Part shown: in pieces, positions 30,047-32,605 of the stretch | How positions within the stretch are numbered: position 1 is the first letter of the stretch | Layout of the letters: each line of letters starts with the position of its first letter | Assembly (NCBI RefSeq): GCF_000969645.2 | Contig: NZ_CP014222.1 | Coordinates: forward strand, 1,863,740 to 1,927,739 | Source: Janthinobacterium sp. B9-8 | Lineage (GTDB): Bacteria; Pseudomonadota; Gammaproteobacteria; Burkholderiales; Chitinibacteraceae | DNA: 64,000 bases | Reading direction: 5' to 3' | Notes under the pieces: generated by a model | Database searches by the model: none | Told to the model about the DNA's origin: nothing | Seen by the model: the letters and a program-made list of their open reading frames with translations, nothing else | Made by a program: the position numbers and the translations under genes

Positions 30047-31117
30047 TCAGGCGTAGCCCAGCTGCCGCGCTGCAAGCGCGGTACCTTCAATACGGGCCGC
30101 AATTTTAGCGAACGCCGTTTCACGGCTGGTACTGGTGTCATCGCAAAAAGGCGAAAAGCCACAATCATCGGTGGTGGCCAGATAGGGATGCGGAATATAC
30201 CGCGCGGCTTGCAGCACTCTTTCGCAAACAATCCCGGCTGTTTCAATCTGCGGATCAATCACGTCGATCACCCCCACAAAAATCACCTGATCAGGCTTAC
30301 GATATTGCTGAATAATTTTTAGCACCCTTTCCGGGTCTTTCTCACAGGCCAGTGCAATATAAAAACACCCTGCTCTTATTTCAAACAAACTGGGGAGTAA
30401 TTCGGCGTAATCCACGTCAGCGCTATGGGTGGAATCATGATCGCTACCGGCGCAGGTATGGATGCCAATTTTTTGCCGCTCCTCAGGGCTAAACCGATCC
30501 AGCAGCATATTATTAATATCAATAAAACTGCGTAAAATCTGCCCGCTTGGGTCAAGCTTTACCGACAAACGCCCCTCGGTAAAATCAAGCTGCACTTTAC
30601 TTACCCCCTGAGCAAAGCAGCCGCGAATTTCTTTTTCCTGTTCGGCCAATAAATCAGCCACAAATTCATCGCGAGGATAATCAGCGATCCCCTGTGCAGG
30701 ATAAAGCAAGCTTAAAGCCGAGGCCGAGATAATGGCCTGCTTAAACGGCTTTTGCGTATACCGGCGCGCTAGGCCAATCGTTTCATGCGCAAAACGTGCA
30801 AACCGAAAAGGCCCGCTGGTTAAGCGGGGCAGCTGGCGAATATGCCCATCATGAAAAGGAATACACAGGCCATCTGCGGCCATATTGCTATTGCCTTCAA
30901 CCCCATAGGTTGCAAAGCTGTGGGTTTTACGCTGCTCGCCATCCCCCAGCACAGGCGAGCCAACGGCCTCCAGATTCATGATCGTGTCTTTTACCGCCTC
31001 ATCATAAAAGACCTCCAGCTCGGCAGCGCTCAGCTCACCCTGATCATGCAAAGACAATGCACGCTGCAATTTTGCCGACCGCGGAATGCTGCCAATCGAT
31101 TCAGTCTTGATACCCAT
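30047..31117 (-). CDS. MetE-core cobalamin-independent methyltransferase
   Basis: A 356-residue protein corresponding to the catalytic C-terminal barrel of cobalamin-independent methionine synthase, without MetE's N-terminal half. Zinc ligands are visible: His and Cys in GIHTCAGSDHDS and Cys in TTDDCGFSPF, with an intervening Glu region. The start TESIGSIPRS is typical of this short family. Stand-alone members methylate thiols, homocysteine or other acceptors with unknown or corrinoid methyl donors. It is the first gene of a two-gene unit with the hybrid kinase. Confidence 0.85.
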   Translation of the reverse strand: MGIKTESIGSIPRSAKLQRALSLHDQGELSAAELEVFYDEAVKDTIMNLEAVGSPVLGDGEQRKTHSFATYGVEGNSNMAADGLCIPFHDGHIRQLPRLTSGPFRFARFAHETIGLARRYTQKPFKQAIISASALSLLYPAQGIADYPRDEFVADLLAEQEKEIRGCFAQGVSKVQLDFTEGRLSVKLDPSGQILRSFIDINNMLLDRFSPEERQKIGIHTCAGSDHDSTHSADVDYAELLPSLFEIRAGCFYIALACEKDPERVLKIIQQYRKPDQVIFVGVIDVIDPQIETAGIVCERVLQAARYIPHPYLATTDDCGFSPFCDDTSTSRETAFAKIAARIEGTALAARQLGYA

Positions 31118-31404
31118 AAAATGGCACTCCCAAATTTAGCTTCCTTTAGTTTAAGTGAGATACAACTACTTGCATAATTCTTTCCTAATAATTTCACAAA
31201 ACAAAATACACTGGCATGAAACATCAGGGAAAAGTATTCAATTACGCAATACAAACCCCAAAAATGGTCAGATTAAAGACAGTAAAGTCTGATACCTGCA
31301 TTCAGTCACTTTGCTGCGCCAAGCAACCGTTACCCGCCATTAAACCCCCATGCAAGTGGTAACAAGCACCTTGCCCACCCGCACCACATCTGCCAGACTG
31401 CCCC

Positions 31405-31548
31405 CTCCTGTCATTGGGGAGTAGCTATCCTTCGCGCAAAGCGAGGGAGGTGGCGTCAACAAACTTGCGGTCTGTGACTGCATGGCGTCATTGATCATCA
31501 GCCGGTATAGCAGATGATTCAGCGAGACCTTTGGCCTCGATACGTTTG
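31405..31548 (+). ncRNA. yybP-ykoY-type manganese riboswitch
   Basis: The leader holds the conserved pieces of the yybP-ykoY aptamer in order: TCATTGGGGAGTAGC (31411-31425), CGTCAACA about 30 bases later, and GCGAGACCTTTGGCC (31522-31536). In this class the GGGGAGUAGC and GAGACCUUUG loops meet to bind Mn2+. It lies just before a cation exchanger gene, the usual type of target. Helix boundaries are approximate. Confidence 0.85.
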
Positions 31549-31550
31549 CC

Positions 31551-31600
31551 TGCCGGGCAAGCCGTGTCGTTGCGCCATTGGTTTAATTGCTTGCCCGGCA
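31551..31600 (+). promoter_or_regulatory. Expression-platform hairpin of the riboswitch
   Basis: TGCCGGGCAAG (31551-31561) pairs exactly with CTTGCCCGGCA (31590-31600), ending 12 bases before the ATG. A short T-rich stretch (TTGTGATTTT) follows. It could act as a terminator or block the ribosome entry region, with the aptamer choosing between folds. Confidence 0.65.
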
Positions 31601-31612
31601 TTGTGATTTTGC

Positions 31613-32605
31613 ATGTTACTCACCCTGTTCCTGTTTTTCTCCTCGGCCATTGCCATCTATTTAGCCTGTGATTATTTCGTCAACGCCATTGAATGGTGTG
31701 GCCGGCATATGAAGCTGGGCGCGACTGCGGTGGGCTCGGTGCTGGCCGCTTTTGGCACGGCGCTCCCCGAAAGCGCGGTCACTTTTACGGCAGTAGTGTT
31801 TGGTTCCACACCAGAGCAAAAAGAGATTGGCGTGGGCGCGGCCATGGGCGGCCCTTTGGTCCTGGCAACGATTGCCTATGCCGTGGTGGGCTTGGCGCTC
31901 TGGCGCAATCGTCAGCGCTTGGCCCGTACAGATCACTTAATCAAGGTGGATCAAGCACGCCTTAGCCAGGATCAGCTGGCTTTTTTAGCCATTTTTGTAT
32001 TTAAAGTAGCACTGGGCCTAGTAGCGTTTGCGCTTAAGCCCTATCTGGGGCTGCTATTTCTGATGGCTTATGCTGTGTATGTTTGGCGGGAAATCAATAC
32101 CGCCGAAACGGCAGCCGAGGAAGAAGAGCTGGAGCCATTAAAGCTGCGCCCAAGCAGCGATAATTGGCGCTGGGCCGCTTTGCAAGTGAGCTTAGCACTG
32201 GCGGTGATAGCCCTTGCCTCGCATATTTTTGTATCCCAGCTCGAAAACTTAGGCGCGATGCTGGGCCTAGCACCGCACTTGGTCGCACTTTTACTTAGCC
32301 CTGTAGCCACTGAATTACCAGAAATCATGAACACCCTGATCTGGGTGCGACAAGGCAAAGAGCGTTTGGCGCTGGCCAATATATCGGGCGCGATGATGAT
32401 TCAAGCCACTATCCCCAGTGCGCTGGGTATTTTCTTTACGCCTTGGCTATTCGACGGCCCCTTGCTCGCCTCCGGCATCATCACCACCGTGGCCATTATT
32501 GTGCTGTATTTGATGTTTAGGCGCGGCAAAGTCAATTGCAAGCAACTGAGCTGCATTGGCTTTCTTTACGCAGGATTTGCGCTCTACTTAGGCTGGGCAA
32601 TCTAA
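31613..32605 (+). CDS. CaCA-family cation exchanger, probable Mn2+/Ca2+ exporter
   Basis: A 330-residue inner-membrane protein with about ten membrane segments in two halves. Each half carries an alpha repeat of the Ca2+:cation antiporter superfamily: GSVLAAFGTALPESAVTF near residue 43 and LLLSPVATELPEIMNTL near residue 225, whose Pro-Glu residues line the ion site. The acidic linker (AAEEEELEPL) between the halves lies in the cytoplasm. The Mn2+ riboswitch in the leader suggests that the exported ion is manganese. No good Shine-Dalgarno sequence precedes the ATG, in line with leader control. Confidence 0.88.
   Translation: MLLTLFLFFSSAIAIYLACDYFVNAIEWCGRHMKLGATAVGSVLAAFGTALPESAVTFTAVVFGSTPEQKEIGVGAAMGGPLVLATIAYAVVGLALWRNRQRLARTDHLIKVDQARLSQDQLAFLAIFVFKVALGLVAFALKPYLGLLFLMAYAVYVWREINTAETAAEEEELEPLKLRPSSDNWRWAALQVSLALAVIALASHIFVSQLENLGAMLGLAPHLVALLLSPVATELPEIMNTLIWVRQGKERLALANISGAMMIQATIPSALGIFFTPWLFDGPLLASGIITTVAIIVLYLMFRRGKVNCKQLSCIGFLYAGFALYLGWAI

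Follow-up and report, generated by a model that had tools for sequence, protein, structure and literature searches.

Results

The window analyzed here, a 64-kb stretch (64,000 nt) of contig NZ_CP014222.1 from Janthinobacterium sp. B9-8, carries a yybP-ykoY Mn2+ riboswitch directly upstream of a CaCA-family antiporter gene. The features of the locus, numbered from the first nucleotide of the window, are as follows.

31391 to 31399, + strand: likely extended −10 promoter element, TGCCAGACT, assigned from conservation, with a putative transcription start near 31406
31404 to 31535, + strand: yybP-ykoY Mn2+ aptamer (RF00080; core GGGGAGTAGC at 31416 to 31425 and GAGACC at 31524 to 31529), from the Rfam match and the core words
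31410 to 31417, + strand: 5′ strand of aptamer helix P1, GUCAUUGG, pairing with 31528 to 31535
31528 to 31535, + strand: 3′ strand of P1, CCUUUGGC, common to P1 and hairpin B
About 31525 to 31584, + strand: hairpin B, the candidate switch hairpin, which competes with P1
31538 to 31569, + strand: upper part of hairpin B (arm 31538 to 31544 with 31563 to 31569), with 7 of 7 pairs changed on both sides and 85.0% of alignment cells paired
31551 to 31600, + strand: helix C, 12 bp (31551 to 31562 with 31589 to 31600), from constrained folds, covariation and RNAalifold
31574 to 31581, + strand: decoy, GCCAUUGG, a mimic of the P1 5′ strand that pairs with the P1 3′ strand and closes hairpin B
31582 to 31589, + strand: U-rich stretch after hairpin B, UUUAAUUG (5 U of 8)
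31613 to 32605, + strand: CaCA-subfamily antiporter of 330 amino acids, a probable Mn2+ exporter and BP3410-type ortholog, from PF01699, identity to Bordetella proteins and the AF2 fold
31754 to 31771, + strand: alpha-1 motif GTALPE (E53 = E54 of NCX_Mj), with T49, A50 and E53 in 120 of 120 proteins; within a collecting pattern
32306 to 32323, + strand: alpha-2 motif ATELPE (E237 = E213 and E234 = S210 of NCX_Mj), with T233, E234 and E237 in 120 of 120; outside the collecting patterns
32387 to 32404, + strand: alpha-2 motif GAMMIQ (A260 = S236, M261 = N237 and Q264 = D240 of NCX_Mj), with Q264 in 120 of 120 and M261 in 117 of 120; within a collecting pattern

The riboswitch is real. The RF00080 model (yybP-ykoY, Mn2+ riboswitch; Rfam 15) matched positions 31404 to 31520 of the + strand at 53.8 bits, above its gathering score of 45 (E 2e-11), so the assignment proposed in an earlier, sequence-only reading of this DNA passed the covariance-model search. 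Across the whole 64-kb window, RF00080 was the one Rfam family to exceed its own gathering score. The two conserved blocks named in that reading are indeed in place, GGGGAGTAGC at 31416 to 31425 and GAGACCTTTG at 31524 to 31533; the model match ends slightly before the second of them. The window leader has every conserved core word (the GGGGAGUAG loop, UCAACA and AGACC), and these words occur in 63 to 64 of the 64 leaders collected. A consensus scan found no sigma-70 promoter at the leader, and the −10 element is therefore proposed from conservation: many relatives have TACAAT/TATAAT-like −10 boxes slightly 5′ of the aptamer, at the same position as the window's TGCCAGACT.

The gene that follows was also read correctly as a CaCA gene. 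Its product matched PF01699 (Na_Ca_ex) in two stretches, with an E value of 2.4e-27 and 96.2 bits against a gathering score of 24.9. Identity as a YrbG equivalog (NCBIfam TIGR00367) was ruled out, the score being 82.1 bits against a cutoff of 179.65. The divergent neighbor on the − strand (30047 to 31117) resembles cobalamin-independent methionine synthase (PF01717) and scored below every NCBIfam cutoff shown.

The riboswitch and the antiporter gene are linked beyond chance

The protein is encoded in 13 of the 43 genomes of the window's bacterial family, and RF00080 scored above gathering at all 13 loci (51.8 to 76.3 bits). Every one of the six copies in the window's genus has the riboswitch. 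We then scanned named genomes, taking the best 80 of 581 relatives. Among these 80, RF00080 reached gathering upstream of 51 (19, 16, 12 and 4 per 20 in rank order). In another 18 of the remaining 29, either GGGGAGTA or GGGAGTAG was present with AGACC or AGACT after it, correctly placed; actinobacteria made up most of these 18, the rest being Clostridium, Pelosinus, B. ansorpii and others. The riboswitch core thus stood upstream of 69 of the best 80, actinobacteria and clostridia included. The GGGGAGTA/AGACC pair did not occur once in the parts of these loci that lie beyond position 1560 on the downstream side (184,548 nt). The linkage of riboswitch and gene exceeds chance.

More distant CaCA homologs (28 to 38% identity) gave a different picture. 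At the 29 loci taken from the 82 genomes with a match in an even class-level sample, neither Rfam (E ≤ 0.1) nor the motif search found a riboswitch. RF00080 itself occurred at 27 places in 24 of the 369 genomes of that sample, and the window's copy was the only one observed to precede a CaCA gene, with downstream genes judged by motif and by eye rather than by family search. A tree of 120 proteins separated a group of 91, of which 62 had an Rfam match, from a group of 29. The larger group holds the window protein together with those of Bordetella, Achromobacter, Rhodanobacteraceae, actinobacteria and clostridia; in the smaller one, the riboswitch was found at L014 and L015 only, both from the window's own family. 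On the tree, the Rfam label must have been gained or lost at least seven times; the label undercounts, as the further copies found by the motif search show. The Rfam model seems to undercount yybP-ykoY in the actinobacterial and clostridial lineages.

Several observations were made along the way. Actinobacterial and clostridial leaders before CaCA genes that fell below Rfam gathering with their core motifs intact were L121, L128, L130, L132, L133, L136, L137, L138, L140, L142, L144, L146, L148 and L149. The L014 and L015 proteins belong to a distant CaCA branch (36 to 38% identity to the window protein) and have both the riboswitch and the same B/C platform, their closest relatives being without it; this looks like a leader captured by another gene. 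At L073 (1290 to 1500) we found a decayed leader in which GGGGAGTA is gone and AGACC has become AAACC, with the arms of B and C kept and a tRNA-Leu gene directly upstream. Five of the 29 distant CaCA loci (L042, L047, L048, L060 and L069) also have tRNA genes no more than about 90 nt away, L042 and L048 on both flanks, and in a sixth, L045, the distance is about 320 nt; this is perhaps a hint of insertion beside tRNA genes. Two loci have another riboswitch on the − strand: in Pseudomonas brassicacearum, a divergent M-box (Mg2+) riboswitch lies near the Mn riboswitch that precedes the CaCA gene (L111, 765 to 939), and in Planotetraspora, the CaCA gene has a divergently oriented c-di-AMP riboswitch upstream (L138, 845 to 991).

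A GDT1/UPF0016 gene was present in 42 of the 43 family genomes, and MntP above cutoff was found in none of the 43. The sole genome without GDT1/UPF0016, G001 (99% complete), has the CaCA gene, preceded by its only detected Mn riboswitch. As a single case, for a gene present in 13 of 43 genomes, this is only suggestive of the gene's function. The Janthinobacterium sp. B9-8 genome has a second RF00080 copy (G000:C1:1603898-1604029, locus L002; 47.0 bits) that precedes a UPF0016/GDT1 gene, and its leader, judged by eye, has a B-like helix and a 12-bp C-like helix, with no clear Shine-Dalgarno sequence.

Hairpin B and helix C make up the expression platform

The sequence-only reading had pointed to an 11-bp hairpin just before the start codon. 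The hairpin is there, but it is longer than stated: helix C has 12 Watson-Crick pairs in constrained folds, with a 26-nt loop, and ends 12 nt before the ATG at 31613. We aligned the platforms of 54 distinct leaders (of 64) from AGACC on. The inner 11 pairs of helix C were paired in 92.9% of the cells of this alignment and had 30 doubly changed cells, against 9.0 in shuffled alignments (0 of 500 shuffles as high). RNAalifold on the leader alignment predicted C alone. A role for helix C as an intrinsic terminator was ruled out, most relatives having no U tract after C. The absence of a Shine-Dalgarno sequence, which the same reading had noted, was confirmed: no Shine-Dalgarno-like tetramer was found between −18 and −4 in 37 of the 45 relatives with a placeable start, the window copy being one of the 37.

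Helix C accounts for just one half of the expression platform. Hairpin B forms the other, and of the two it is more likely to be the regulatory switch. Hairpin B was tested as 31528 to 31535 paired with the decoy at 31574 to 31581, plus the arm 31538 to 31544 with 31563 to 31569. Over the 54 leaders, it was paired in 80.7% of cells, against 72.2% after shuffling, and had 73 doubly changed cells, against 28.9; none of 500 shuffles was as high on either measure, and slid versions reached 54.8% paired at most. The base helix was 77.7% paired, a figure lowered by two inner positions that are mostly unpaired. The apical part, which overlaps the 5′ arm of helix C, was weaker (72.5% against 69.7% paired, 15 against 6.2 doubly changed cells). 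The mean fold z score of hairpin B was −3.74, with 52 of the 54 leaders below −2, and 44 hairpins were closed by CC:GG.

The window decoy, GCCAUUGG, resembles the P1 5′ strand, GUCAUUGG. The P1 3′ strand therefore has two possible partners, as does the 5′ arm of C. P1 itself averaged 6.11 pairs of 8 over the 54 leaders, against 5.97 shuffled (1 of 1,000 shuffles as high), and the complementarity of the P1 3′ strand to the decoy as an 8-mer was in small excess, 6.2 against 6.0 pairs of 8 (0 of 1,000 as high). The strong covariation signal is that of the whole hairpin B and not of this simple 8-mer complementarity. By both covariation and folds, hairpin B contains the P1 3′ strand, as an attenuation platform requires. 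With neither a tertiary nor an Mn2+ term in the folding, the full window leader folded unconstrained at −94.8 kcal/mol, forming B, and at −77.0 kcal/mol with P1 forced, forming C; the transcript up to 31589 folded, under the same energy model, at −79.8 kcal/mol with B and −67.2 kcal/mol with P1.

The 8 nt that follow the decoy contain at least four U's in 33 of the 54 leaders, as opposed to 11% of all 8-mers in the same platforms, and fewer than four in the other 21. In the window, the first three U's of this stretch can also pair with AGA of AGACC, and a terminator scan found nothing at hairpin B. The B. pertussis-like leader continues after the decoy core with GGGATCTG, which is poor in U; the UUUAAUU tract that follows hairpin B in the window leader is absent from that copy. 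In Clostridium and Pelosinus relatives (L128, L136 and L146), long U runs follow the B-equivalent hairpin, which is a textbook intrinsic terminator there; Mn-ON attenuation is predicted on this basis. Both Clostridium leaders among the three also have a separate Shine-Dalgarno sequence.

The antiporter has the CaCA fold with a changed ion site

The AF2 model of the window protein, built with 48 sequences, had a pLDDT of 89.2 and a pTM of 0.86. In a structural comparison that re-ranked Foldseek's own matches only, ranks 1 to 26 were all CaCA chains (Z 19.6 to 33.1), among them NCLX (33.1), NCX1 (29.7), VCX1 (29.5), CAX (29.2) and NCX_Mj (21.4). The window protein thus has in common with these five the fold (Z 21 to 33) and one glutamate per alpha-repeat, and both glutamates, E53 and E237, are retained across 120 relatives.

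The positions that we take to be Na+- or ion-site residues of NCX_Mj, S51, S77, S210, S236, D240 and N81, are a different matter. In pairwise alignment, extended without gaps to N81, the window protein has A50 (S51A), G80 (S77G), L84 (N81L), E234 (S210E), A260 (S236A) and Q264 (D240Q) at these positions, together with M261 (N237M), and it tested negative as a Na+-coupled NCX-type exchanger. Across the 120 relatives, S51, S210 and D240 are replaced by A, E and Q, and N81 mainly by L; S77 is G or A in 119 of 120, S236 is A in 115 of 120, and N237 is M in 117 of 120. These counts are subject to selection bias, in that 80 of the 120 proteins were collected with patterns covering AAxGTALPE and NIxGAMxxQ; E234, P81, L84, T233 and N240 lie outside the collecting patterns. 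Since the Na+-site serines are lost, Na+ coupling of the window protein seems unlikely. No residue signature separated riboswitch-bearing from riboswitch-less proteins, the key residues being nearly the same in the 64 with and the 56 without an Rfam match.

The very probable Bordetella ortholog is a published Mn exporter

We found the window protein's match in 15 of 15 Bordetella-genus genomes, at 60 to 69% identity over the aligned part, with the riboswitch core directly upstream and the same B/C platform at all 15 loci. B. pertussis BP3410 belongs to the same branch of the gene family, has the same riboswitch class directly upstream and is annotated as a calcium:cation antiporter. It is described as an Mn exporter of the CaCA family whose yybP-ykoY leader mediates induction by Mn; the induction is reported to be lost when either the −10 box or two conserved G's of the aptamer are mutated (PMC8546581). 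The same paper reports about 5-fold less cellular Mn with functional BP3410 and states, as data not shown, that calcium had no effect on BP3410 expression. BP3410 also appears in a review, there as an Mn exporter of the Ca2+:cation exchanger type (PMC9936198).

Most B. pertussis strains are reported to have a 10-residue in-frame duplication that inactivates BP3410 (PMC8546581); the window copy is without it. In one Bordetella-genus genome (G420), the match to the window protein is split in two, with query residues 260 to 271 covered twice. Such a split is what the published duplication of 10 residues in an alpha-repeat predicts, and on sequence evidence the window gene and BP3410 are therefore very probably orthologs. 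In another genome of the genus (G419, locus L171), the copy matches the first 155 residues only, a truncated gene, and the riboswitch is still there. Three Bordetella loci (L150, L151 and L156) have a second RF00080 copy before a gene that appears MntP-like by eye.

For the B. pertussis-like leader, the start suggested by a TACAAT box lies 208 to 210 nt before the end of the decoy. A BprK Northern signal of about 200 nt, a short transcript seen in B. pertussis without added Mn, is on record (PMC8546581).

Discussion

The sequence-only reading predicted a manganese exporter in a family usually annotated as Na+/Ca2+ exchanger. Our analysis supports that prediction, which would carry over to the window gene from the case published for its Bordetella ortholog (PMC8546581). 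The pairing of Mn exporter and riboswitch is right but not new, one of its kind having been published in 2021 for the ortholog. PMC8546581 and the review PMC9936198 are what we found on CaCA genes under yybP-ykoY control, and an earlier mention may exist. The exporter assignment is very likely.

We consider it probable that an Mn2+-activated (ON) yybP-ykoY riboswitch controls an Mn2+-exporting CaCA antiporter, with termination at B when Mn is low and readthrough when it is high. Starting from the observed aptamer match, gene identity, conserved linkage and covariation of B and C, we infer a scheme in which termination at B in Janthinobacterium sp. B9-8, the counter-ion and the role of C are the predicted parts. 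Transcription would start directly 5′ of the aptamer. When Mn2+ is scarce, the decoy GCCAUUGG would capture the P1 3′ strand, CCUUUGGC, and the resulting long hairpin B, with its U-rich tail, would end transcription at about 180 to 190 nt. High cytosolic Mn2+ would hold the aptamer folded, so that P1 retains its 3′ strand and B is unable to close; with B open, polymerase would pass, helix C would form, and the exporter would be made. The exporter would then remove Mn2+, probably against H+ or another cation.

The exporter controlled by yybP-ykoY in L. lactis is a P-type ATPase, so both the exporter and the host, a low-GC Gram-positive, differ from ours. The switch itself is alike: in the L. 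lactis riboswitch as described, a terminator hairpin uses the 3′ segment of switch helix P1.1 as well, and Mn2+ stabilizes P1.1 to give readthrough (PMC11087558), a scheme matched by the sharing of the P1 3′ strand with hairpin B in the window leader. UPF0016/GDT1 (MneA-type) genes, L002 included, have the same aptamer and, in several leaders, a similar B/C layout. Their proteins, reported to export Mn (PMC7380456), are of an unrelated sequence family; in several of their leaders C abuts GGAG, and mostly no U tract follows B.

Attenuation is the control mode we lean toward, in the face of some evidence against it. At the decision point B is favored over P1 by 12.6 kcal/mol, Mn2+ terms apart, and P1 must therefore win kinetically; the proteobacterial U tract is short and weak; and helix C is better paired than B and sits near the usual Shine-Dalgarno site, a combination that suggests translational control. 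The same Mn riboswitch could thus act on the same Mn exporter at translation, with or without Rho, helix C deciding ribosome access and early termination following poor translation. The short distance from C to the ATG, the conserved lack of a Shine-Dalgarno sequence and the weak U tract of many leaders are all consistent with such control, as is the layout of the UPF0016 leaders, and E. coli mntP is reported to have an Mn riboswitch that acts on translation, with termination by Rho within the leader (PMC11647493). However, in the full-leader Mn-free fold, B keeps C from forming and the start region stays open, and P1 permits C, so control through C would turn the gene off with Mn unless C helps initiation. 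In clostridial relatives, moreover, B is a plain terminator and there are good, separate Shine-Dalgarno sites, and the start codons of L014 and L015 are, by eye, about 100 nt beyond C. We regard translational control as possible but doubtful.

The gene might also be a calcium or general divalent exporter, the riboswitch reading Mn2+ as a proxy or responding to Ca2+ as well. The CaCA fold and family and the two retained alpha-repeat glutamates would fit, and the pneumococcal mgtA yybP-ykoY aptamer is reported to bind both Ca2+ and Mn2+ (PMC9495176). The replacement of the Na+-site serines and D240 of NCX_Mj argues the other way, as do the lack of a calcium effect on expression (data not shown) and the roughly 5-fold drop in Mn content given for the Bordetella ortholog (PMC8546581), and we think a calcium exporter improbable. 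That the leader is a relic or a chance resemblance, with no working riboswitch here, is hardly credible: its score is just 8.8 bits above gathering and decayed aptamers such as that of L073 do occur, but all of its core words are intact, covariation extends across 54 distinct leaders, and all six copies in the window's genus have the riboswitch.

With an Mn2+-activated riboswitch and an Mn exporter as the preferred reading, the ion site can be considered further. In Nramp transporters, a methionine discriminates Mn2+ from Ca2+. By analogy, we put forward a broader idea, tentatively and with more doubt than conviction. The proteobacterial, actinobacterial and clostridial CaCA subfamily with the motifs GTALPE, GP, ATELPE and GAM..Q may consist of Mn2+-specific, Na+-independent exporters with a remodeled cation site, in which the Na+-binding serines and D240 would have given way to an additional glutamate, a glutamine and a methionine, and the methionine could serve to tell Mn2+ from Ca2+. 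The riboswitch, including its many subthreshold copies, would then mark function and would have been captured separately by the L014/L015 branch.

The core claim is already in print, and the gain here is one of breadth and mechanism rather than discovery: relative to the literature we found, the additions are the distribution, the switch model and the ion-site signature. They widen a single published case, that of Bordetella, to many lineages and supply a concrete switch model, P1 against a hairpin that mimics it, along with residues to mutate for ion selectivity. For a large and widespread subfamily, a generic "Na+/Ca2+ exchanger" annotation would give way to a testable assignment as Mn exporters.
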